From positions 38,912 to 102,911 of the forward strand of contig JAPLEJ010000050.1 in NCBI GenBank assembly GCA_026391435.1: DNA of 64,000 bases. Reading direction: 5' to 3'. The notes under the pieces were generated by a model. It had not been told where the DNA came from. It worked only from the letters and a program-made list of their open reading frames with translations, and ran no database searches. This stretch comes from Bacteroidota bacterium. Its GTDB lineage: Bacteria > Bacteroidota > Bacteroidia > Chitinophagales > Chitinophagaceae. How positions within the stretch are numbered: the first letter of the stretch is position 1; every line of letters begins with the position of its first letter. The position numbers were made by a program, and so were the translations under genes. This document shows positions 182-47,734 of this stretch, piece by piece.

Positions 182-1438
182 ATGAAGAAAATAATTTATT
201 TCTTATTTCTATTTTTGTTTTGCATTGGAATATTTGCAAATGCACAAGACAATGCTGGATTAACTTTACCTGCCGGTTTTAAGGCCAATTTATTTGCTGA
301 AAATATCGGTGGCGCAAGGCATATCGCTATCACAAAAAACGGAATTGTTTTTGCAAAATTAAATCGTGCTAATAAACAAGGTCAATCTATTGTTCGATTA
401 GAAGATGCCAATAAGGATGGCGTAGCAGATAAGATAACTGGATTAGCTAATTATGGAGGTACGGGTATTTATTTAAATGGTAATAGTTTATATGCTAGTT
501 CGAACGAGGCCATCTTTAAATACGAATTAGATAATAAGGACGAAGTATTGAATCCACTAAGTCCCGTTACAATAGTGAGTGGCCTTATTAATCGTCGTCA
601 ACATGAATCAAAGTCAATTACTTTTGATAAAGCGAATCATATATATGTAAACATTGGGGCTTATTCTAATGCATGTCAAGAACAAGACAGAACACCTGGT
701 TCAAAAGGTAAAATACCATGTCCAATTTTAGATTCAGCAGGCGGTATTTGGAAATTTGATGGTAACAAAGAGAATCAGACTTATGGAGATGGTATGCGAT
801 ATGCAACTGGATTAAGAAATGTAGTAGGATTAGATTGGAATACGCAAACGAATAAATTATATGTTTCACAACATGGTCGCGACCAGTTAAATACTTTTTT
901 CCCAAGTTTATATAATGATGCTCAAAATGCAGAATTACCTGCAGAAACATTTTATGAAATCAATGAAGGAGACAATGCAGGCTGGCCTTATATATATTAT
1001 GATCCAAGTCAACATAAAAAAATAGTATCACCAGAATATGGTGGAGATGGACAAAAAGAGGGTGCTAGTAATTTTATCAATCCTGCAGTTGCCTTCCCAG
1101 CACATATGGCACCCATGGCTGTATTATTTTATACAGGAGATCAATTCCCTGCAAAATATAAAAATGGAGCATTTATTACTTTTCATGGCTCATGGAATAG
1201 AGCTCCTTTGCCACAGGAAGGATTTTTTGTTGCATTTGTCCCTTTTAAAAATGGAAAAGCAACAGGCGAATGGGAAATTTTTGCAAATGGATTTGCAGGA
1301 ACCATTGATGGCGCAAAAGTGACTAGTACCAATAAGGCAAAAGCAAGACCATGTGGTTTGGCCCAAGGTCCTGATGGATCTATCTATGTAAGTGATGATA
1401 CGAAAGGTGCTATTTTTAAAATTAGTTATAATAAATAA
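182..1438 (+). CDS. PQQ-dependent sugar dehydrogenase / L-sorbosone dehydrogenase family protein (secreted)
   Basis: Signal peptide, then LPAGFKANLFAENIGGARHIAI and GLRNVVGLDWN...GRDQ...GDNAGWPYIYYD...GPDGSIYVSDD motifs. Confidence 0.85.
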   Translation: MKKIIYFLFLFLFCIGIFANAQDNAGLTLPAGFKANLFAENIGGARHIAITKNGIVFAKLNRANKQGQSIVRLEDANKDGVADKITGLANYGGTGIYLNGNSLYASSNEAIFKYELDNKDEVLNPLSPVTIVSGLINRRQHESKSITFDKANHIYVNIGAYSNACQEQDRTPGSKGKIPCPILDSAGGIWKFDGNKENQTYGDGMRYATGLRNVVGLDWNTQTNKLYVSQHGRDQLNTFFPSLYNDAQNAELPAETFYEINEGDNAGWPYIYYDPSQHKKIVSPEYGGDGQKEGASNFINPAVAFPAHMAPMAVLFYTGDQFPAKYKNGAFITFHGSWNRAPLPQEGFFVAFVPFKNGKATGEWEIFANGFAGTIDGAKVTSTNKAKARPCGLAQGPDGSIYVSDDTKGAIFKISYNK

Positions 1439-1449
1439 AGTATTTTAAA

Positions 1450-1875
1450 ATGGTGCAATATAAATGGAAGGGCATTTTTTTGGCAGGTATGTTGTTATTT
1501 GGTTTAACACAAAGCATTCAAGCACAAAATGTCATCAATGGAAAAAAGATTTATGAAACTAGATGCTTAGTTTGTCACCAAGCAGATGGGGGTGGGGTGC
1601 CCAATATGAATGCACCATTGGATGGATCTACCAATGTGGTTGGAAATGATATCAGTAGGCTAGTTAAGATTATAAAAAATGGATTTAAAGATAAGGTGGA
1701 ACTAGATGGAAATTATTATAGTAATGACATGACACCCAATCCTGATTTAACGGACGCGGCAATAGCTGATGTTTTAAGTTATATCAGAACTAGTTGGAGT
1801 AACAAATCTTCTATAGTGACATTGGCGCAAGTTAAAAATGCCAATAAGGGCAATCAAAAAAAGAATTCGAAATAA
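1450..1875 (+). CDS. Cytochrome c, class I-like, secreted
   Basis: Signal peptide, CLVCH (CxxCH) heme motif and distal Met (NDMTPNPDLTD). Confidence 0.85.
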   Translation: MVQYKWKGIFLAGMLLFGLTQSIQAQNVINGKKIYETRCLVCHQADGGGVPNMNAPLDGSTNVVGNDISRLVKIIKNGFKDKVELDGNYYSNDMTPNPDLTDAAIADVLSYIRTSWSNKSSIVTLAQVKNANKGNQKKNSK

Positions 1876-1886
1876 ACACAATAATC

Positions 1887-3017
1887 ATGCGACCTATTTT
1901 ATTCATTGATCGAGATGGCGTTATTTTAGAAGAACCAAAGACAGATTTTCAAATTGATCATATTGAAAAAACGAGTTTTGTTCCTGGGGTCATTACGAAT
2001 TTGCATAAGATTGCAACTGAACTAGGTTACTATAAAGTGATGGTCACCAACCAAGACGGTTTAGGTACGGCATCTTATCCAACTGAACAATTTGAGCCCT
2101 TACAACAATTAATGTTGAGAACCTTAGCAGCAGAAGGGTTTGTATTTGATGAAATTAAAATTGATACTACTTTCGCTAAAGACAATGCGCCTAATAGGAA
2201 GCCAGGTACGGGACTTGTCCAACACTTATTAAATAACGAGTCATTTGATATCGCCAACTCTTTTGTCATTGGAGACAGGTGGAGTGATATTGCGCTTGCA
2301 AAAAACATAGGTTGTAAAGCTATTTATCTAAAATCAGATCTTCATACATTAACAGAGGATCAAGAAAAGGAACTTAGAAGTACCATTGTTTTTGAAACCA
2401 ATAGTTGGTCTGGTATTTATTCATTTCTTAAATTAGGATTACGACTGGTAAAACACGAACGCAATACCAAAGAGACAAAAATTAAAATCGCCCTCAATAT
2501 GGATGGAAGGGGGCATGCTAATATTCATACAGGACTTGGATTTTTTGATCATATGTTAGAACAAATTGCTAGACATGGATCAATTGATTTAGACATTCAG
2601 TGCGATGGTGATTTACATATTGACGAACACCACACCATTGAAGATGTGGGTATTGCTTTAGGGGAGGCTTTTGCAAAAGGGTTATCAGATAAAAGAGGAA
2701 TGGAACGATATGGCTATGCTTTACCAATGGATGAGGCCGAGGCCAAAGTATTGATTGATTTTGGGGGTCGTAATTGGTTGGTTTGGGACGCCAATTTTAC
2801 AAGAGAGAAGGTAGGGGAAATGCCTACTGAAATGTTTTTCCATTTTTTCAAATCCTTCAGTGATGCAGCCAAAGCCAATCTAAATATTAGCTGTAAGGGA
2901 GAAAATGAACACCATAAAATAGAGGCCATTTTTAAAGCTTTCGCTAAGGCCATCAAAATGGCGGTGCATCGCAATCCCACTAATGACCAATTGCCTAGTA
3001 CCAAGGGGGTTTTATAG
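1887..3017 (+). CDS. hisB: Bifunctional histidinol-phosphatase / imidazoleglycerol-phosphate dehydratase
   Basis: N-terminal HAD motif FIDRDGVI; C-terminal IGPD motifs (GFFDHMLEQIARHG, DEHHTIEDVGIALG). Confidence 0.95.
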   Translation: MRPILFIDRDGVILEEPKTDFQIDHIEKTSFVPGVITNLHKIATELGYYKVMVTNQDGLGTASYPTEQFEPLQQLMLRTLAAEGFVFDEIKIDTTFAKDNAPNRKPGTGLVQHLLNNESFDIANSFVIGDRWSDIALAKNIGCKAIYLKSDLHTLTEDQEKELRSTIVFETNSWSGIYSFLKLGLRLVKHERNTKETKIKIALNMDGRGHANIHTGLGFFDHMLEQIARHGSIDLDIQCDGDLHIDEHHTIEDVGIALGEAFAKGLSDKRGMERYGYALPMDEAEAKVLIDFGGRNWLVWDANFTREKVGEMPTEMFFHFFKSFSDAAKANLNISCKGENEHHKIEAIFKAFAKAIKMAVHRNPTNDQLPSTKGVL

Positions 3018-3054
3018 GTTTTGGACTAACAACTGATAGGTTATCTGGCCTTTA

Positions 3055-3086
3055 TTTGGATTTATAATTTCATTGTCTTAAATTTG
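3055..3086 (+). promoter_or_regulatory. Bacteroidota-type promoter for trp operon: TTTG (3055-3058) - N20 - TAAATTTG (3079-3086)
   Basis: Match to TTTG-N19-21-TAnnTTTG; ends 7 nt before the trpL ATG. Confidence 0.75.
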
Positions 3087-3093
3087 CGATACG

Positions 3094-3150
3094 ATGATAA
3101 AAACAAACAATATTTGGTGGTGGCATACAAACTCCGTTGGGGTACTGTAG
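3094..3150 (+). CDS. trpL: trp operon leader peptide MIKTNNIWWWHTNSVGVL*
   Basis: Manual translation: 18 codons with three tandem TGG codons (3115-3123), 83 nt upstream of trpE and followed by a terminator hairpin. Absent from the ORF track because of its length. Confidence 0.9.
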   Translation: MIKTNNIWWWHTNSVGVL

Positions 3151-3180
3151 TGACATATCTATATTGTCAAATGATACATG

Positions 3181-3214
3181 AACCCTAACAGCAATGTTGG
3201 GGTTTATTTTTTTT
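3181..3214 (+). terminator. trp attenuator terminator
   Basis: AACCCTAACA (3181-3190) / TGTTGGGGTT (3195-3204) stem with GCAA loop, then TATTTTTTTT. The 5' arm also pairs with GTTGGGGT at 3136-3143 inside trpL. Confidence 0.88.
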
Positions 3215-3233
3215 AATAAATGAAAGGGGGAAT

Positions 3234-4646
3234 ATGAAAAAGGTTATGATACAAACGGAGGTCACTAAAATGTTGGCCGATACTTTTACACCTGTAGGTA
3301 TTTACTTACGGTTAAGAGATCGTTTTCGTGACACTATATTACTAGAAAGCACCGATTCGCATGCTGCCGAAAATAGCTATTCCTTTATTGGAGTGAATGC
3401 GATTGGAGGTATCGAAATTTCATCTTTGAATCAAATTGAATTTAAGTATCCCAATCAGGAGCCAGAAAAAGAGACCATCAAAAATGTACACGATGCACCT
3501 GATCGTATTTGGTCCTATATGCAACAATATGAAATGCAAAGTACCAATATTAAAGAGGCTTCCTTTGGGCAAGGTTTGTATGGGTATACGACTTATGACG
3601 CCATTCCTTTTTTTGATACTATTGAATTTAAAAAAGAAGAAAACATTATTCCATTAATGCGATATAGATTATATCAATATGTTATTGCATTTAATCACTT
3701 TAAAGATGAAATATTTATTTGTGAAAATAAATTAGCTGGAGTGGATTCTGAATATGAAGCACTATTGTCTTATATCAAAAGTAAAGATGTACCCCAATAT
3801 CCTTTTTTTATAAAAGGAACCGAAACGGTGAATCAGACTGACGAGGAGTTTAAAAAAGTAGTAGAACAAGGTATCAAGCATTGTATGAGAGGGGACGTGT
3901 TTCAAATTGTATTGAGCAGGCGTTTTCAGCAATCTTTTCAAGGCGATGAATTCAATGTATATCGCACTTTAAGAAATATTAATCCTTCTCCTTATTTATT
4001 CTTTTTTGATTATGGTGATTATAAATTAATGGGGTCATCTCCTGAGGCACAAATTATTATTAAAAAGGGTAAAGCAGTAGTGCACCCAATAGCGGGTACA
4101 TTTAAAAGAAGTGGGGATGAGGCAGTTGATGCAATAATGACACAAAAATTACTGGATGATCCTAAAGAAAACGCCGAACATGTGATGTTGGTTGATTTAG
4201 CTCGAAATGATTTAAGTAGGGTTTGTAGCGAAGTCCGTGTTAAGCAATATCGCCAAGTACACTATTATAGTCATGTGATACATTTAGTGAGTGAAGTGGA
4301 AGGTACGGTTGCAGAGAATGCCAATCCTTTTCAGTTGGTTTCAAAAACTTTTCCAGCAGGAACCTTAAGCGGTGCTCCTAAATTTAAAGCCATGCAATTG
4401 ATTGATGCCATGGAACCTACTAAACGCTCTTATTATGGAGGTTGTATTGGATTTGTTGGTTTTGATGGTAGTTGTAATCAGGCCATTATGATTCGTACTT
4501 TTTTAAGTCAACAAAATACCCTTACATATCAAGCAGGTGCTGGAGTGGTCGCAGCGAGCGTTCCAGAAAATGAATTACAGGAAGTAAATAATAAATTAAA
4601 TGCATTAAAAACTGCCATATTGATGGCTGAAAAAATTCATGCATAA
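3234..4646 (+). CDS. trpE: Anthranilate synthase component I
   Basis: Chorismate-binding motifs (PIAGTFKRSGDE, DDPKENAEHVMLVDLARNDLSRV, AGTLSGAPKFKAMQLID). Confidence 0.96.
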   Translation: MKKVMIQTEVTKMLADTFTPVGIYLRLRDRFRDTILLESTDSHAAENSYSFIGVNAIGGIEISSLNQIEFKYPNQEPEKETIKNVHDAPDRIWSYMQQYEMQSTNIKEASFGQGLYGYTTYDAIPFFDTIEFKKEENIIPLMRYRLYQYVIAFNHFKDEIFICENKLAGVDSEYEALLSYIKSKDVPQYPFFIKGTETVNQTDEEFKKVVEQGIKHCMRGDVFQIVLSRRFQQSFQGDEFNVYRTLRNINPSPYLFFFDYGDYKLMGSSPEAQIIIKKGKAVVHPIAGTFKRSGDEAVDAIMTQKLLDDPKENAEHVMLVDLARNDLSRVCSEVRVKQYRQVHYYSHVIHLVSEVEGTVAENANPFQLVSKTFPAGTLSGAPKFKAMQLIDAMEPTKRSYYGGCIGFVGFDGSCNQAIMIRTFLSQQNTLTYQAGAGVVAASVPENELQEVNNKLNALKTAILMAEKIHA

Positions 4647-4674
4647 AATGTTACTTTACTACAAAAAATAAAAA

Positions 4675-5244
4675 ATGAAAATATTAGTTTTTGATAATTA
4701 CGATTCCTTTACTTATAACTTAGTTCAGTTGATTAAGGAAATAGCACCTAGCTCAATGGTCGAAGTGTATCGTAATGATGAAATTGCTTTAGAGCAAGTG
4801 AAGGGATATGATAAAATATTGCTTTCTCCTGGCCCAGGTTTGCCATCGGAGTCGGGTTTGTTATTAGACTTGATTAAAGAATATGCGGCTAGTAAATCCA
4901 TTTTGGGTGTTTGTTTAGGGCAGCAAGCTATAGGTGAATCATTTGGCGGGAAATTGACAAATTTAGCAAAAGTGTATCATGGTATCGCAACGCCAGTCAC
5001 CTTAACAAATCCATCTTCTTTGTTTGAAGGATTGCCATCTACGTTTAATGTAGGGCGTTATCATAGCTGGGTAGTGGATGAAATTAATTTTCCATCTGAT
5101 TTAACGATTACTTCAATAGATGAAAATGGATACATCATGTCTTTGGAGCATAAACAATATGATGTAAAGGGAGTTCAGTATCATCCCGAAAGTGTACTCA
5201 CTCCTGAGGGCGGAAAAATAATCAGTAATTGGTTAAAACTATAA
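4675..5244 (+). CDS. trpG: Anthranilate synthase component II (glutamine amidotransferase)
   Basis: FDNYDSFTYNLVQ, GVCLGQQAIGE, VQYHPESVLTPEG. Confidence 0.96.
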   Translation: MKILVFDNYDSFTYNLVQLIKEIAPSSMVEVYRNDEIALEQVKGYDKILLSPGPGLPSESGLLLDLIKEYAASKSILGVCLGQQAIGESFGGKLTNLAKVYHGIATPVTLTNPSSLFEGLPSTFNVGRYHSWVVDEINFPSDLTITSIDENGYIMSLEHKQYDVKGVQYHPESVLTPEGGKIISNWLKL

Positions 5245-5291
5245 TTCAAGTGGAATTGCTAAAATGATTTAAAATCGAATATCAAACCAAG

Positions 5292-6284
5292 ATGAAAAAA
5301 GTATTACAATATTTATTTGAACACAAAACCTTAACAAGGACTCAGGCGATGGAAGTATTGCTTAATATTTCAAATGAAAAATACAATGAGCACGAGATCA
5401 CCTCTTTTATTACGGTGTATTTAATGCGTAGTATTACCATTGATGAATTATTGGGATTTAGAGATGCTTTATTATCCTTAGCTGTAAAAGTGAACTTAGG
5501 TGTTGATAATGCGATAGACATTGTAGGAACAGGAGGAGATGGTAAGGATACTTTTAATATTTCAACATTAGCTTGTTTTATAGTAGCTGGTGCAGGACAG
5601 CCTGTAGTGAAACATGGAAATTATGGTGCTTCGAGTGTGAGTGGGGCTTCCAATGTGATGGAACAATTAGGATATACATTTAAAAACAAAGAAGCCGCAT
5701 TAGCCAAGGAAGTGAAGGAGGCAGGGATTTGTTTTTTACATGCACCTTTATTCCACCCAGCTTTGAAAGCAGTAGGTCCCATGAGAAGAAACATAGGAGT
5801 GCGCACTTTCTTTAATATGTTAGGGCCCATTGTGAATCCAGCACAACCTAAATTTCAATTGATTGGGGTATATAATTTAGAAATGGCAAGAATTTATAAT
5901 TATGTATTACAATTATTAGATAAGGAATTTACTTTAATTCATAGTTTGGATGGATATGATGAAATTTCATTGACAACGGATACCAAAATAATAACGAATA
6001 AAGGAGAGTCCATTAAAACACCTTATGAACTTGGAAAGAAAAAAGTGTTTGCTTCCGAATTGCATGGAGGTGCTACAGTGCAGGAAGCAGCTGCTATTTT
6101 TAAAACTATAATAGCAGGCAAAGGCAGCTGGTCTCAAAATGCGGTGGTACTAGCCAACGCCGCAATGGCATTACATGTGACTGGAAAATATCAAAATTAT
6201 GATGCTGCTTTTCAGGCAGCGGTGACTAGTTTGGAAACGGGCGCGGCGAATCAATGTTTACAAAAATTAATAAGTCTACAATGA
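5292..6284 (+). CDS. trpD: Anthranilate phosphoribosyltransferase
   Basis: DIVGTGGDGKDTFNISTLACFIVAGAG and VKHGNYGASSVSGASNVMEQLG motifs. Confidence 0.96.
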   Translation: MKKVLQYLFEHKTLTRTQAMEVLLNISNEKYNEHEITSFITVYLMRSITIDELLGFRDALLSLAVKVNLGVDNAIDIVGTGGDGKDTFNISTLACFIVAGAGQPVVKHGNYGASSVSGASNVMEQLGYTFKNKEAALAKEVKEAGICFLHAPLFHPALKAVGPMRRNIGVRTFFNMLGPIVNPAQPKFQLIGVYNLEMARIYNYVLQLLDKEFTLIHSLDGYDEISLTTDTKIITNKGESIKTPYELGKKKVFASELHGGATVQEAAAIFKTIIAGKGSWSQNAVVLANAAMALHVTGKYQNYDAAFQAAVTSLETGAANQCLQKLISLQ

Positions 6285-7084
6285 GCCAAAATATTTTAGC
6301 AAATATAGTAGCGCAAAAATTAGGGGAAGTGGCCCATCGCAAACAAGAAGTGAGTATTGCGCAACTTGAGGCCATGCCATTGTTTGGAAAAAAGGCCTAT
6401 TCTTTAAAATCGAATATTCTAGATAAAAATAAAACGGGCATCATTGCCGAATTTAAACGACAATCTCCTTCCAAAGGCATTATTAATAATACAGCACAAG
6501 TGCATGAAGTCACTAAAGCGTATTCCGATTTTGGCGCATCAGGTATTTCCGTATTAACTGATCAGTCTTTTTTTGGAGGCACATTAGCCGATTTGGCAAT
6601 CGCAGTTCAACATACTACACCCGTGTTAAGAAAGGAATTTATTATTGATGAATTTCAAGTGATTGAAGCCAAAGCTTATGGCGCATCGGTCATATTATTA
6701 ATAGCCTCATGTTTAACACCTGCTGAAACACAATTATTAGCCGGCACCGCTAAGGAATTAGGTATGGAAGTGTTATTAGAATTACATGATGCATCTGAAT
6801 TAGAATATATCTGTGATGAGGTTGATTTTGTGGGTATTAACAATCGAAGTTTAAAATCTTTCGAAGTAAATATTGAACATTCATTACAATTAAGGAGTCA
6901 ATTGCCAAAAAATAAATTAAGTATTGCCGAAAGCGGTATTTATGATCTAGCCACTTTTGAATTATTGAAAAAAGAAGGGTTTGACGGATTTTTAATGGGT
7001 GAATATTTTATGAAACAAGATAATCCTGCAGCAGCTTTTGAATTATTTGTATCACAAATTAAAACAAATAGCAATGCAGTATAA
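6281..7084 (+). CDS. trpC: Indole-3-glycerol phosphate synthase
   Basis: IAEFKRQSPSKGII, VLRKEFIIDEFQV, GINNRSLKSFEV; ATGA overlap with trpD. Start placed at MSQNILANIV. Confidence 0.95.
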   Translation: MSQNILANIVAQKLGEVAHRKQEVSIAQLEAMPLFGKKAYSLKSNILDKNKTGIIAEFKRQSPSKGIINNTAQVHEVTKAYSDFGASGISVLTDQSFFGGTLADLAIAVQHTTPVLRKEFIIDEFQVIEAKAYGASVILLIASCLTPAETQLLAGTAKELGMEVLLELHDASELEYICDEVDFVGINNRSLKSFEVNIEHSLQLRSQLPKNKLSIAESGIYDLATFELLKKEGFDGFLMGEYFMKQDNPAAAFELFVSQIKTNSNAV

Positions 7085-7700
7085 AGTGTGTGGCATTACC
7101 CAAGTAGAACAAGCTAATGCTTTAGACAGTATGGGCGTGGACTATATTGGATTTATATTTTACCCTTTATCAAAAAGGTATGTATTGAATTCATTAAGCA
7201 TAGATGATCTTGCCAAGTTGAAGCCCACTCATGCCAAAAAAGTGGGCGTATTTGTTAATGAAACAGCTGCAAAAGTGTTGGAGATAGTAGAAAAAGCAAA
7301 ATTGGATTTGGTTCAGTTGCATGGGGAGGAAGATGTAGATTATTGTAAACTCATTGAAAAAGTAGTTCCAGTTATTAAAGTTTTTAGAGTAGGAAATGCC
7401 GTACCTGATTTTAATGCCTTTGAACAAGCAGCTTCCTATTATTTGTTTGATACAGATACTGCTTTATATGGAGGCACTGGACAACATTTTAATTGGGAGT
7501 TAATAAAAAATACTACTATTCAAAAGCCTTATTTTTTAAGTGGAGGAATTGGCCCCCATGATGTTCAAGGAATTGAAGTAATGCAAAAAACAAAAGCAGG
7601 AAAGGATTTGATGGCAATAGATATCAATAGCCAATTTGAAACAATACCTGGGATTAAAAATTTAGAAATGATTAAAACTTTTATAGATGTCCATATTTAA
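7074..7700 (+). CDS. trpF: Phosphoribosylanthranilate isomerase
   Basis: KVCGITQVEQANAL, VDYIGFIFYPLSKRYV, VQLHGEED; starts inside the trpC 3' end. Confidence 0.95.
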   Translation: MQYKVCGITQVEQANALDSMGVDYIGFIFYPLSKRYVLNSLSIDDLAKLKPTHAKKVGVFVNETAAKVLEIVEKAKLDLVQLHGEEDVDYCKLIEKVVPVIKVFRVGNAVPDFNAFEQAASYYLFDTDTALYGGTGQHFNWELIKNTTIQKPYFLSGGIGPHDVQGIEVMQKTKAGKDLMAIDINSQFETIPGIKNLEMIKTFIDVHI

Positions 7701-8892
7701 CACACAAAATGATTACCAAACACCAAGTGCAGAAGGTTACTATGGTGAATTTGGAGGCGCCTTTATTCCTGAGATGCTTTATGAGAATGTAGCAACTTTA
7801 CAATCTCAGTATTTAAAAATAATGCAGGATCCTTCTTTCAAAGCAGAAGTAGATGCTTTATTAAAAGATTATGTAGGTCGACCCACTCCACTTTTTTTAG
7901 CTGAAAGGTTGAGCAAGGAAATAGGAGCTACCATTTATTTAAAGAGAGAGGATTTATGCCATACGGGTGCGCATAAAATTAATAACACCATTGGTCAAAT
8001 TATATTAGCACAAAGATTAGGGAAAACTAAAATAATTGCAGAAACAGGGGCAGGACAACACGGCGTTGCAACTGCAACAGTCTGTGCTTTAAAAGGGATG
8101 GAGTGTGTCGTGTACATGGGTGAAAAAGATATTGAAAGACAAGCCCCTAATGTAGCTAGAATGAAAATGTTAGGCGCAAAAGTAGTGCCAGCAAAAAGCG
8201 GAAGTAAAACTTTAAAAGATGCCACAAATGAAGCCATTCGCGCATGGATCAACGAACCTAATGAAACACATTATATTATTGGTAGTGTAGTTGGACCGCA
8301 TCCTTATCCGGATATGGTAGCTCGTTTCCAAAGTGTGATTAGTGAAGAAATTAGAACTCAATTAAAACAAATAACAGGTAATGAACTTCCAACGCATGTG
8401 GTGGCTTGTGTGGGTGGCGGTAGTAATGCAGCGGGCGCTTTTTATCATTTTTTAAATGAAGCCTCTGTTGCATTAATTGCTGTAGAAGCAGCAGGGCATG
8501 GAGTTAATTCAGGATTAAGTGCGGCAACAACACAATTAGGTACGCATGGTATTTTACATGGCAGTAAAAGTATAGTGATGCAAACAAAGGATGGTCAAGT
8601 AGTAGAGCCACATAGTATTTCTGCTGGTTTAGATTATCCTGGAATTGGACCCTTGCATGCTTATTTATATGAAAGTAAAAGAGGTACTTTTTTAAGTGCT
8701 ACCGATGAAGAAGCTTTGGCTTCTGCTTTTCATATTTCTGAAACGGAAGGAATTATTCCTGCATTAGAAACAGCACATGCTTTTTCGGTTTTACCAAAGT
8801 TGAATTTAAAACCAACAGATGTCGTGGTGATATGTTTAAGTGGAAGAGGCGATAAGGATTTAGATACCTATATGAAATACATTAAAGATTAA
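7687..8892 (+). CDS. trpB: Tryptophan synthase beta subunit
   Basis: KREDLCHTGAHKINNTIGQ, ETGAGQHGVATAT, CVGGGSNAAG. Confidence 0.97.
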   Translation: MSIFNTQNDYQTPSAEGYYGEFGGAFIPEMLYENVATLQSQYLKIMQDPSFKAEVDALLKDYVGRPTPLFLAERLSKEIGATIYLKREDLCHTGAHKINNTIGQIILAQRLGKTKIIAETGAGQHGVATATVCALKGMECVVYMGEKDIERQAPNVARMKMLGAKVVPAKSGSKTLKDATNEAIRAWINEPNETHYIIGSVVGPHPYPDMVARFQSVISEEIRTQLKQITGNELPTHVVACVGGGSNAAGAFYHFLNEASVALIAVEAAGHGVNSGLSAATTQLGTHGILHGSKSIVMQTKDGQVVEPHSISAGLDYPGIGPLHAYLYESKRGTFLSATDEEALASAFHISETEGIIPALETAHAFSVLPKLNLKPTDVVVICLSGRGDKDLDTYMKYIKD

Positions 8893-8904
8893 AGCATTAC
8901 AATT

Positions 8905-9678
8905 ATGTCAAGGTTAGAAATATTATTCCAAAAGCAATCAAAGCGAGTGCTAAATGTGTATTGCACTGCGGGCTATCCAAATTTAAATAGCACACTGCCT
9001 ATTATGGAAAGCTTACAAAGCAATGGGGCCAATATTATAGAATTAGGCATGCCTTATAGTGATCCTTTGGCAGATGGCGAAGTTATTCAGTCTAGCAGCC
9101 AAATGGCATTAAATAATGGGATGACGATAGAAGTTTTGTTTGAACAACTAAGCAGCATGCGCAATACCATTCACTTACCTGTGGTATTGATGGGGTATAT
9201 GAATCCGATTTTACAATATGGGTTTGAGGCATTTTGTAAAAAAGCAAAACAAGTTGGTATTGATGGACTCATTTTACCTGATTTGCCTTTGTATGAATTT
9301 GAAAATGGGTATGGAAAAATAATTTCGGAGAATGGGTTGGATTTTATTTTTTTAGTAACACCCGAAACGCCCGAAACAAGACTTAGAAAACTAGATAGTT
9401 TAAGTACAGGATTTTTATATGCAGTAAGTTCTTCTGCTACTACTGGTAAGGACAAAGATTTTTCTAAAGTAGCACAATATTTACAACGTATCACCTCGAT
9501 GGGTTTAAAGAACCCCATTTTGGTAGGATTTGGAATCAAAGACAAAGAAAGCTTTGACGCTGTTAATGTATATACCAATGGTGCCATTATTGGGTCGGCT
9601 TATATTAGTGCATTATCAAAAGGGGGTGACATTGAGCAATGCACAAAGCAATTTTTAAATGAAGTATTAGGTAATTAA
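8905..9678 (+). CDS. trpA: Tryptophan synthase alpha subunit
   Basis: IELGMPYSDPLADGEVIQ, LPVVLMGYMNPI, GFGIKD. Confidence 0.96.
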   Translation: MSRLEILFQKQSKRVLNVYCTAGYPNLNSTLPIMESLQSNGANIIELGMPYSDPLADGEVIQSSSQMALNNGMTIEVLFEQLSSMRNTIHLPVVLMGYMNPILQYGFEAFCKKAKQVGIDGLILPDLPLYEFENGYGKIISENGLDFIFLVTPETPETRLRKLDSLSTGFLYAVSSSATTGKDKDFSKVAQYLQRITSMGLKNPILVGFGIKDKESFDAVNVYTNGAIIGSAYISALSKGGDIEQCTKQFLNEVLGN

Positions 9679-9684
9679 AATAGA

Positions 9685-10275
9685 ATGAAAATAGTTATCA
9701 TACAATACAACGCGGGCAATATTCAATCTGTACTATATGCATTGGAGCGAATAGGAGTGTCGGCCATTGTTACAGATCGTGCCGACTTGATTCAAACTGC
9801 CGATAAAGTGATATTTCCAGGAGTAGGGGAAGCAAGTACAGCGATGCAATATTTAAAGGAGCGAAACTTAGATACACTCATTAGTGAATTAAAGCAACCC
9901 GTTTTAGGTATTTGTTTGGGTATGCAATTAATGTGTAAGCATTCCACCGAAAATAATACCCCCTGCATGGGTATTTTTGATGAACAAGTGCAACTATTTT
10001 CAAGTTCGGATTCAAAAATAAAAGTGCCTCAGATGGGATGGAATAATATACATCATTTAAAAACGAATTTATTCACTGGGGTGCCAGAAGATAGTTATGC
10101 ATATTTTGTACATGGCTATTATGCAACAATGGGTAATCATACCATTGCAACTACTGATTATATTCAGCCCTATAGCGCTGCATTACAAAAGGATAATTTT
10201 TATGGAGTGCAATTTCATCCTGAAAAATCGGCTATCATCGGCGAACAAATTTTAAAAAACTTTATCACACTTTAA
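9685..10275 (+). CDS. hisH: Imidazole glycerol phosphate synthase subunit HisH
   Basis: NAGNIQSVLYALERIG, PGVGEAST, GICLGMQLM, GVQFHPEKS; starts 6 nt after the trpA stop. Confidence 0.96.
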   Translation: MKIVIIQYNAGNIQSVLYALERIGVSAIVTDRADLIQTADKVIFPGVGEASTAMQYLKERNLDTLISELKQPVLGICLGMQLMCKHSTENNTPCMGIFDEQVQLFSSSDSKIKVPQMGWNNIHHLKTNLFTGVPEDSYAYFVHGYYATMGNHTIATTDYIQPYSAALQKDNFYGVQFHPEKSAIIGEQILKNFITL

Positions 10276-10290
10276 TATTATAACCCAACA

Positions 10291-11007
10291 ATGCAAATTA
10301 TTCCAGCCATAGATATTATTGATGGTAAATGTGTCCGATTAACAGAAGGAGACTATACGCAAAAAAAAATTTACAATGAAGATCCTTTGGAAGTGGCAAA
10401 AGCTTTTGAGGGAATTGGATTAATGCGCTTGCATTTAGTGGATTTAGATGGAGCGAAAGCTGGACAGGTAGTCAATTGGAAAGTGTTAGAAAAAATCGCT
10501 AATGGAACAAAGTTAAAAATTGATTTCGGAGGAGGGATTAAAACCGAAGCAACTTTAAAAACAGTGATGGATACAGGGGCTACTTTTGCAACAATTGGAA
10601 GTTTAGCTGTGAAAAGTCCCGATTTATTTCAAGAATGGATCGCTCGATTTGGCGCAGCCGTTTTTATGTTGGGGGCGGATGTATATGAGGAGAAAATTGC
10701 TATTGGTGGCTGGCTTGAAAAAACAGAAATTACAGTCTTTGATTTTGTGACCTTGTATATGAATAAGGGAGTAACACAAATATTTTGTACCGATATACAA
10801 AAGGATGGCAAGCTACAAGGGCCTTCTATTGCACTTTATCAAAAGATATTAGAACAATTCCCTTCATTGCAATTAATAGCAAGTGGAGGTGTGAGCTGCT
10901 TAGATGATTTAATTGAGCTTGAAGAGATAGGCTGTACTGCCGCTATTGTAGGGAAAGCTATTTATGAAAATAAAATAACCATTTCGGAATTAGCTAATTT
11001 TAATTAG
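10291..11007 (+). CDS. hisA: ProFAR isomerase (HisA)
   Basis: [44 protein letters not shown]. Confidence 0.96.
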
Positions 11008-11020
11008 CGATAAAATAAAT

Positions 11021-11779
11021 ATGTTAACCAAACGAATTATACCTTGTTTAGATATTAAAGACGGCCGAACGGTGAAGGGGGTCAACTTTGAGCAATTGCG
11101 TGATGCGGGCGACCCCATTGAATTAGGGGCATTATATGCAAGTCAGGGTGCGGACGAATTGGTTTTCTTAGACATTACGGCTACTGTTGAAAAGCGCAAA
11201 ACCCTAAGTGAGTTGGTCAATAAAATTGCACATCGTATCAATATTCCATTTACGGTAGGCGGAGGTATAAAAACAGAAGAGGATGTGAGTATATTATTAC
11301 AAAATGGGGCAGATAAAATTTCAATTAATACCGCAGCCTTTTTAAATCCTAACATCATACAAAGTTTTGCCAAAAATTTTGGTAGTCAATGTGTGGTATT
11401 GGCCATTGATACCAAATGCGAGTCAGATGGCCAATGGTATGTTTATTTAAATGGAGGCCGTCAAAAAACAGATACTTTAACAACAGAATGGGCAAAAAAA
11501 GCAGTAGATCTAGGCGTGGGTGAAATTTTATTAACTTCGATGAATCATGATGGCACCAAACAAGGGTTTGCTTTAGATATTACAGCCACCTTATCAGAAA
11601 CCTTGTCAGTGCCCATTATTGCATCAGGAGGGGGTGGAAATGAATCTCATTTTTATGATGTATTTACCAATGGTAAGGCAGATGCTGCCTTAGCTGCAAG
11701 TATATTTCACTATAAGGAATTAGCGATACCTACTTTAAAAAATTATTTACACGAAAAAGGAATACCCATTAGATTATAA
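11021..11779 (+). CDS. hisF: Imidazole glycerol phosphate synthase subunit HisF
   Basis: [59 protein letters not shown]. Confidence 0.97.
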
Positions 11780-11798
11780 ACTTTATTTAATTTTAATT

Positions 11799-12392
11799 AT
11801 GAATATCAATTTTACAAAATATGCAGATGGACTGGTGCCTGCGATCATTCAGGATGCTCAAACCAAAACAGTGTTAATGTTGGGTTTTATGAATCAAGCG
11901 GCCATAGATCTTACTGTGTCCGAAAAAAAAGTAACCTTTTTTAGTCGAACCAAAAATAGATTATGGACCAAGGGAGAAGAGAGCGGCCATTACCTTCATT
12001 ATATAAGTATGGAAGTAGATTGTGATCAAGATACTTTGCTAATACAAGCGAACCCATCTGGTCCTGTTTGTCATAATGGGACCGCTACTTGTTGGGGCGA
12101 TGATCATGCTAGCTCCTTTTTGCCTCAGCTTGAATCCATTATTGCGGAACGAAAAAATGCAGATCCAGCCTCATCCTACGTGGCAAGTTTGTTTGAAAAG
12201 GGAATCAATAAAATTGCACAAAAAGTAGGGGAGGAAGCGGTTGAATTAGTTATAGAAGCAAAGGATAGTAATCATGATTTGTTTTTAAATGAATCAGCAG
12301 ATTTATTATTTCATTACCTTATACTACTTCAAGTAAAAGGTTACCAGCTTAGTGATGTTAGTGAAATTTTAAAACAAAGGCATAAAAACTAA
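11799..12392 (+). CDS. hisIE: Bifunctional phosphoribosyl-AMP cyclohydrolase / phosphoribosyl-ATP pyrophosphatase
   Basis: FFSRTKNRLWTKGEESGHYL, GPVCHNGTATCWG, KVGEEAVELVIEAKD. Confidence 0.96.
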   Translation: MNINFTKYADGLVPAIIQDAQTKTVLMLGFMNQAAIDLTVSEKKVTFFSRTKNRLWTKGEESGHYLHYISMEVDCDQDTLLIQANPSGPVCHNGTATCWGDDHASSFLPQLESIIAERKNADPASSYVASLFEKGINKIAQKVGEEAVELVIEAKDSNHDLFLNESADLLFHYLILLQVKGYQLSDVSEILKQRHKN

Positions 12393-46710: not shown

Positions 46711-46797
46711 ATGAAAGCAAATATTAACAATTGGTTTTACTTTTTCTTTTATTTCTACTTTAACCAAAGTAGCCGGGTAGTATTTGTAAAAGCTTAA
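46711..46797 (+). CDS. Phe/Tyr-rich leader peptide MKANINNWFYFFFYFYFNQSSRVVFVKA*
   Basis: Manual translation: 28 codons with the run FYFFFYFYF, upstream of pheA and followed by a terminator. Not in the ORF track. Confidence 0.9.
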   Translation: MKANINNWFYFFFYFYFNQSSRVVFVKA

Positions 46798-46816
46798 ACG
46801 AAATAACTAAATATAC

Positions 46817-46846
46817 AATCCCGGCCCACCAGTCGGGATTTTTTTT
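46817..46846 (+). terminator. pheA-operon attenuator terminator
   Basis: AATCCCGGC-CCACCA-GTCGGGATT (one G-T wobble) then T6. CCCGGC (46820-46825) can instead pair with GCCGGG (46772-46777) in the leader ORF. Confidence 0.87.
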
Positions 46847-46897
46847 ATCCCTAACGTAAAGCAGGAAAAACATAAAAACGAATAGGATTTATCAAGA

Positions 46898-47734
46898 ATG
46901 AATAAAAAGGTGACGATACAAGGATACGAAGGGAGCTTCCACCAAGTGGCAGCCATGCATTTTTTCGGAAAAAATGTAGAAGTAATTACTTGTGATACTT
47001 TTAGAGAAGTGGTAAAAATAGGCGCTGATCTCAAATTGTCAGATGGCGCAGTGATGGCCATCGAAAATTCAATCGCTGGAAGTATTTTACCCAACTATAA
47101 TTTACTGCAAAAAAGTAATCTACAAGTGATAGGGGAAGTGTATTTATCCATCAGTCAAAATTTATTAACCTATCCAGGTGTCAAGCTAGAAGATATCAAG
47201 GAAGTGCATAGCCATCCTATGGCAATTTTACAATGTTTGGATTATTTAGAAAAATACAATTGGAAATTAGTTGAATCAGAGGATACGGCATTAAGTGCAA
47301 AATTGGTACACCAACATAAATACAAACATGTTGCAGCCATCGCTAGTAAATTAGCTGCACAGTTGTATGATTTGAATATAGTATCTCCTGACATACATAC
47401 TTTAAAAAATAATATTACTCGTTTTTTAGTGATGGCGCCCACGGCGGCTAAAATTAAAGTAGCAGATGCAAATAAAGGGTCTATCTATTTCCAAACGGAT
47501 CATTCTAGAGGTATCCTTTCCAAAGTGTTGGCTAAAATCGCGCAAGGAAAAGTAAACTTGAGCAAGTTGCAAAGTATGCCTATTCCTGGAAGCACATTTA
47601 AATATGGGTTTTATGCAGATTTGGAATTTGAGAACAACAAACAAATGGGAAAAGTATTGGAGGAAATAAAATCCCTTACGAATAGTTTGAAAATATTTGG
47701 TATGTATAAAAAAGGTAAAGTAGTTAAAGGTTAA
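46898..47734 (+). CDS. pheA: Prephenate dehydratase
   Basis: VTIQGYEGSFHQVAAMHFFG, AIENSIAGSILPNYNLL, NITRFLVMA; ACT-like C-terminus. Confidence 0.93.
   Translation: MNKKVTIQGYEGSFHQVAAMHFFGKNVEVITCDTFREVVKIGADLKLSDGAVMAIENSIAGSILPNYNLLQKSNLQVIGEVYLSISQNLLTYPGVKLEDIKEVHSHPMAILQCLDYLEKYNWKLVESEDTALSAKLVHQHKYKHVAAIASKLAAQLYDLNIVSPDIHTLKNNITRFLVMAPTAAKIKVADANKGSIYFQTDHSRGILSKVLAKIAQGKVNLSKLQSMPIPGSTFKYGFYADLEFENNKQMGKVLEEIKSLTNSLKIFGMYKKGKVVKG

Follow-up and report, generated by a model that had tools for sequence, protein, structure and literature searches.

A probable tryptophan attenuator with three tandem Trp codons between hisB and trpE in Chitinophagaceae, and related leaders across the Bacteroidia

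Does the short region that separates hisB from trpE in the window (the whole 64,000-nt stretch of Bacteroidota DNA that was analysed) sense tryptophan, and if so, by which arrangement of the RNA? Downstream of hisB (1887-3017) there follow a promoter, a leader ORF, a small hairpin and a terminator, and then trpE (3234-4646; PF00425 and PF04715), the first structural gene controlled. The remaining genes, trpG-D-C-F-B-A (4675-9678), were assigned by Pfam in the case of the glutamine amidotransferase TrpG, and by translation and the gene order kept in relatives for the others. All these elements from the promoter to trpA lie on the plus strand. The nearest TrpE records, in a scan of one genome per species, belong to Sediminibacterium and to unclassified Chitinophagaceae MAGs. 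A first-pass annotation, made from the sequence alone, had read the region as a Trp-sensing attenuator in which the terminator 3' arm has a second copy upstream that serves as the antiterminator. Its coordinates (ORF, WWW, both copies of GTTGGGGT, ACCCTAAC, TGACA/TGTCA and T-tract) hold to the base, and the reading itself is strongly supported by conservation, covariation, own-versus-swapped pairing and masked folding. The locus is very probably a classical ribosome-mediated transcription attenuator of the trp operon, given the conservation of WWW, the covariation, the class-wide fit of the arms, the masked folding and the likeness to E. coli.

The leader ORF, trpL (3094-3150), has 18 codons and encodes MIKTNNIWWWHTNSVGVL, with three tandem Trp codons (TGG TGG TGG, 3115-3123) as the control codons and a stop codon (3148-3150) 83 nt from trpE. 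Relatives were collected by a TrpE scan with one genome per species, giving 80 loci, four of which are cut by contig ends. All 76 Chitinophagaceae loci with sufficient upstream sequence carry a WWW leader 5' of trpE, so that the leader is not a chance ORF. The peptides of the 76 relatives nearly always read WWWHT...RGL or WWWHT...VGVL. The last leader codons retain GGGG, but it is read as AGG GGA in some relatives and as GGG GTA in others; this difference in frame suggests selection on the RNA and not on the peptide, and peptide-level selection for RGL/VGVL was rejected as the main cause. The conserved peptide end and the precedent of peTrpL and rnTrpL in S. meliloti (PMC7298713) would also fit an additional action in trans of the peptide or of the short terminated RNA, but RNA pairing explains the conserved end, and the same GGGG is read in two frames (RGL; VGVL/SGVL), which makes such an action improbable.

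The leader is preceded by a promoter of the Bacteroidota sigma-A type (3055-3086), read directly and found in relatives, with TTTG at 3055-3058, a 20-nt spacer and TAAATTTG at 3079-3086. The first position of the finding, 3055, falls on the -33 box of this promoter, which the first-pass annotation had not named. In 70 of 74 relatives (8.5 in shuffled sequence) a -7-like box is located at most 45 nt upstream of an in-frame leader ATG, TTG stands at the -33 spacing in 70/70 of the relatives having the box, and the gap between box and leader ATG is 7 nt in 52 of these 70. A scan for E. coli-type promoters did not detect the leader promoter. The F. psychrophilum consensus, TAnnTTTG, covers positions -12 to -5 (PMC9723704); if this box position is assumed valid here, transcription is predicted to start at 3091, with a 5' UTR of 3 nt (3091-3093), and the leader mRNA would be near-leaderless. 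Leaderless mRNAs are rare in F. psychrophilum (5.5%, PMC9723704), and 5' UTRs shorter than 10 nt make up ~3.7% in B. thetaiotaomicron. Some relatives have longer gaps between box and ATG, and the predicted very short 5' UTR is thus common, not universal.

The intrinsic terminator (3178-3214) consists of a 13-pair stem with a 4-nt loop, as given by the consensus scan (0.3 expected in shuffles), and a T-tract (3207-3214) that ends 19 nt before the trpE ATG (3234). The terminator 5' arm, segment 3 (3178-3190), contains ACCCTAAC (3182-3189), common to antiterminator and terminator, and the 3' arm, segment 4 (3195-3207), includes GTTGGGGT at 3196-3203. The upstream copy of GTTGGGGT is segment 2, the antiterminator 5' arm (3136-3143), which lies within the last leader codons and starts 12 nt behind the last Trp codon. 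Segment 2 is complementary to 3182-3189 with one G-U pair, and the potential of the two GTTGGGGT copies to compete for ACCCTAAC, first pointed out by the earlier annotation, is confirmed in the sequence. The small spacer hairpin that it described (TGACA/TGTCA, 3151-3155 and 3165-3169, together 3151-3169) is present and recurs in aligned close relatives. The leader RNA (143 nt) folds better than its shuffles (z -2.9). A terminator was found in 77/77 aligned loci, the window counted, and its 5' arm begins 29-39 nt past the leader stop codon in relatives.

Segments 2 and 3 covary. Over 53 distinct arm sets the offset-0 pair is GC in 45, AT in 7 and GT in 1, paired in 53/53, while the mean after shuffling is 47.1 and 0/2000 shuffles are as good; the neighbouring positions are likewise above the shuffled values, and the window holds the G-U intermediate. 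The A-T arm set forms one clade, so within-family covariation alone amounts to one or a few events, and the exchange of A-T and G-C looks like a single evolutionary event in that clade. At the level of sequence, the class-wide comparison of own with swapped arms is stronger evidence. For 41 leaders outside the family, pairing with their own terminator 5' arm has a mean of -10.98 kcal/mol, against -8.81 (sd 0.38) when permuted, with 0/5000 permutations as good (p < 1/5000). These arm pairs are of unrelated sequence, e.g. GTGAACGGC/GCTGTTCAC, ACAGTAGG/CCTACTGT and AGGCAGCC/GGGTTGCC, and in most of the 41 loci 12-20 nt separate the last Trp codon from the start of the arm, irrespective of whether the stop codon precedes or follows the arm. 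The many leaders with exchanged arms are a natural data set on the geometry of ribosome stalling.

The same observations bear on whether the locus is only a plain terminator or insulator after hisB, with a small ORF that is spurious or unregulated and without Trp sensing. Such a terminator alone would insulate the trp genes from his read-through, and many ordinary terminators of similar sequence occur in the genome; this reading, however, leaves the WWW leaders (76/76), the conserved promoter and the leader-arm covariation unexplained, and many relatives have the same arrangement without hisB upstream. We consider it very improbable.

For the attenuator, the fate of the arms was followed by folding with ribosome-occupied segments masked, as the first-pass annotation had proposed. 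The masks were assumed to reach 12 or 18 nt beyond the first Trp codon and 10 nt beyond the stop codon; the nascent RNA was cut off before the terminator 3' arm, and the stalled ribosome was placed on the first or the third Trp codon. With a ribosome stalled at WWW the antiterminator is formed (segment 2:3 has P 1.00 for the near group and 0.88-0.93 for the far group), and with the stop-codon mask it is not (P 0.00 in both groups), as expected if a ribosome at the stop codon covers the arm, which the annotation had stated. A few far relatives (e.g. L042, L043, L045, L047) have an antiterminator of only 4 contiguous pairs, with P ~0.2-0.7. The trpL of E. coli K-12 (MG1655), used as a positive control, gives an alike pattern. 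When the whole RNA is folded to equilibrium, almost every near-group state has the terminator, including the one with a stalled ribosome, and the same holds for E. coli. The earlier statement that a stalled ribosome frees an arm which blocks the terminator is therefore borne out in the nascent-RNA folds but not in terms of stability, and since the terminator prevails at equilibrium in most loci even when the ribosome is stalled, we infer that the switch has to be kinetic, set by the order of synthesis.

In the mechanism proposed, transcription would start ~3 nt 5' of the leader ATG, and the translating ribosome would follow RNA polymerase closely along the leader. Under a shortage of charged tRNA-Trp, the ribosome would stall at WWW (3115-3123), leaving 3136-3143 free to pair with 3182-3189 before the terminator 3' arm is synthesised; with the antiterminator formed, the polymerase would pass the T-tract and transcribe trpEGDCFBA. 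When Trp is abundant, the ribosome would reach the stop codon (3148-3150) and cover 3136-3143, allowing the terminator (3178-3207) to form. Without translation, leader RNA further upstream would capture the arm, and the terminator would again form. The main effect could instead be translational, with leader translation feeding reinitiation at trpE, as short leader ORFs near a start codon have been hypothesised to raise translation of the next gene (PMC4833913). Here, however, 83 nt lie between the stop codon and trpE, this distance ranges from 72 to 283 nt across relatives, and a strong terminator with a T-tract is placed between them, so that we give this possibility hardly any weight next to control by termination.

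The first-pass annotation had set the locus apart from E. coli as a system of two helices rather than four segments. This contrast is overdrawn, because E. coli trpL shows the same competition and an upstream partner of arm 2 is predicted here too; complementary triples of this kind are normal in proteobacterial and actinobacterial attenuators (PMC1262725). The candidate segment 1, ACTCC (3131-3135), to which the fold, the AAC bias and the arm sequestration point, can pair with 3139-3143. When the leader is folded without a ribosome, upstream RNA is predicted to sequester the GGGG of segment 2, at P 0.97 in the window and at P >0.5 in 41/41 distinct relatives. The Asn codon after WWW is AAC in 50 cases and AAT in 2, whereas before WWW the counts are 64 and 86, and the near-fixation of AAC suggests an RNA-level constraint at the site of segment 1. 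Shuffling of segment 1 makes its hairpin with segment 2 only slightly weaker (-2.88 vs -2.26 kcal/mol; 28/41), which speaks only weakly for selection on this pairing. This small cost, and the fact that in masked folding antiterminator and terminator suffice to explain both the stalled state and the one at the stop codon, would suit a strict model of these two helices without a functional segment 1. We regard that model as rather unlikely, as it accounts neither for the predicted upstream sequestration of arm 2 nor for a codon preference that is seen after WWW and not before it. With sequestration and AAC bias on one side, yet a small shuffle effect on the other, a compact four-segment layout is likely, although not proved.

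In its general plan the locus is similar to E. coli trpL (RF00513). In both, a short leader ORF contains tandem Trp codons, the terminator 5' arm is complementary to arm 2 as well as to the terminator 3' arm, and a T-tract and then trpE follow; in E. coli, too, the antiterminator arm (CGGGC) is similar to the 3' arm of the terminator. Arm 2 is found 14 nt downstream of the Trp codons in E. coli and 12 nt here, after the stop codon in E. coli and inside the last leader codons here. The 1:2 hairpin is much smaller in the window, and the predicted 5' UTR of 3 nt is without a Shine-Dalgarno site. Such sites are little used in Bacteroidota. The S. meliloti trpLE(G) attenuator also has a trp leader peptide and its RNA begins at the leader ATG (PMC7298713), but it comes from an alphaproteobacterium, the peptide is unrelated, and the leaderless start here is only predicted. 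Within the phylum, 'strong clues' for leader-peptide attenuation 5' of amino-acid operons were described in F. psychrophilum, with structured 5' elements upstream of pheA and hisG (PMC9723704); this species belongs to a different family, and the main text of that paper is without leader sequences, arms, a mechanism or tryptophan.

The closest described family is Bacteroid-trp, RF01692 (Weinberg et al. 2010, PMC2864571), a Bacteroidota RNA 5' of trp genes; those of its matches that were retrieved contain WW/WWW leaders and a terminator, as here. The locus has no match to this model at E <= 10 within 2900-3400, and 0/61 relatives, the source genome among them, were matched. Against RF00513 (Trp_leader) it scores 13.9 bits, not significant at a cut-off of 41. 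At gathering score only a tRNA was matched by Rfam, and with loose thresholds the matches near the locus are all sub-threshold and chance-like. RF01692 matches 11/198 genomes, a part of the trp loci with WW/WWW leaders; in one of them (G253) it falls at the same place as the covariance model built here. The RF01692-type leaders pair better with the terminator loop and 3' arm, while here pairing is with the 5' arm: GTCGTGA in their last codons pairs with TCACGAC, which spans the loop and the first part of the 3' arm, and not with the 5' arm, and for Bacteroidaceae-like leaders this pairing gives -10.9 vs -7.9 when swapped. Bacteroidaceae-like loci of this type (L101, L107, L111, L113, L117, L118, L120, L121, L182) would have a different way to block the terminator.

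How widely the arrangement occurs was estimated in a class sample taken by the TrpE N-terminal domain, independently of the leader, in which a WW/WWW leader and, behind it, a T-tract precede the gene in 22 of the best 30 trpE loci. Attenuators were counted only where a WW leader lies upstream of a trp gene, and the loci confirmed in this way come from 16 family codes. The tally of our covariance model R1 (294/397) was set aside as an attenuator count because the model is dominated by the terminator; it has 36 matches at E <= 1 in its own genome, and those inspected are ordinary terminators. A pattern search for promoter, WWW and T-tract was also discarded as unspecific, a reversed control pattern giving similar matches.

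The his operon encloses the trp operon, in the order hisG-D-C, two other genes, hisB, trpL-EGDCFBA and hisH-A-F-IE (L195:5805-9031 and window 1887-12392). The hisG-D-C genes adjoin the window on its upstream side, and the two genes between hisC and hisB, on the same strand, are glucose/sorbosone dehydrogenase-like and cytochrome c genes (window 182-1875). hisB is directly 5' of trpL in 36/38 close relatives, the remaining 2 loci being cut, and the order trp then his is retained in 6/8 genomes inspected downstream. hisH-A-F-IE is directly 3' of trpA, and with a trpA-hisH gap of 7 nt the trp attenuator may also govern the distal his genes; if hisH-IE are without their own promoter, Trp attenuation would lower them too.

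The attenuator mechanism is already known; it is new for Chitinophagaceae and outside the existing Rfam models, and the interest lies in its distribution and in the his and phe parallels. A 2010 survey stated that leader-peptide attenuation, to the knowledge of its authors, had not been shown outside Proteobacteria and Actinobacteria (PMC2965389), and in a 2013 survey the models of amino-acid attenuators were limited to the enterobacterial type (PMC3766115). A trp attenuator conserved in most of the Bacteroidia sampled would imply that ribosomes trail RNA polymerase closely enough for control, and transcription-translation coupling in Bacteroidota becomes directly testable. Tentatively, and with somewhat less than even confidence in the whole, we propose that Bacteroidota may have their own widespread leader-peptide attenuators (trp, his, phe), often leaderless or nearly so, with an arm that follows the control codons at a fixed spacing, may precede, span or follow the stop codon, and turns over freely in sequence; the Bacteroidaceae form would be a distinct type attacking the terminator loop and 3' arm, and where trp genes lie between his genes, the distal his genes would be limited by Trp attenuation too.

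A Phe/Tyr-rich leader of the same design, MKANINNWFYFFFYFYFNQSSRVVFVKA, is found in the window at 46711-46797, followed by a terminator at 46818-46847 and by pheA at 46898 (region 46711-46860). Its arm GCCGGG (46772-46777) complements CCCGGC of the terminator 5' arm, and such a leader occurs at 17/22 pheA loci of the relatives search (18 by script; L250 was judged spurious). A His leader peptide of this design, MNLNNHTHHHFLTNR, with a terminator, precedes hisG ~3.2 kb before the window (L195:5673-5790; G000:C52:35672). Its -7 box, TAATTTCG, is located 4 nt before the ATG, and its arm GGTAAGC spans the stop codon and complements GCTTACT of the terminator; such a leader is present at 22/25 hisG loci of the relatives search.
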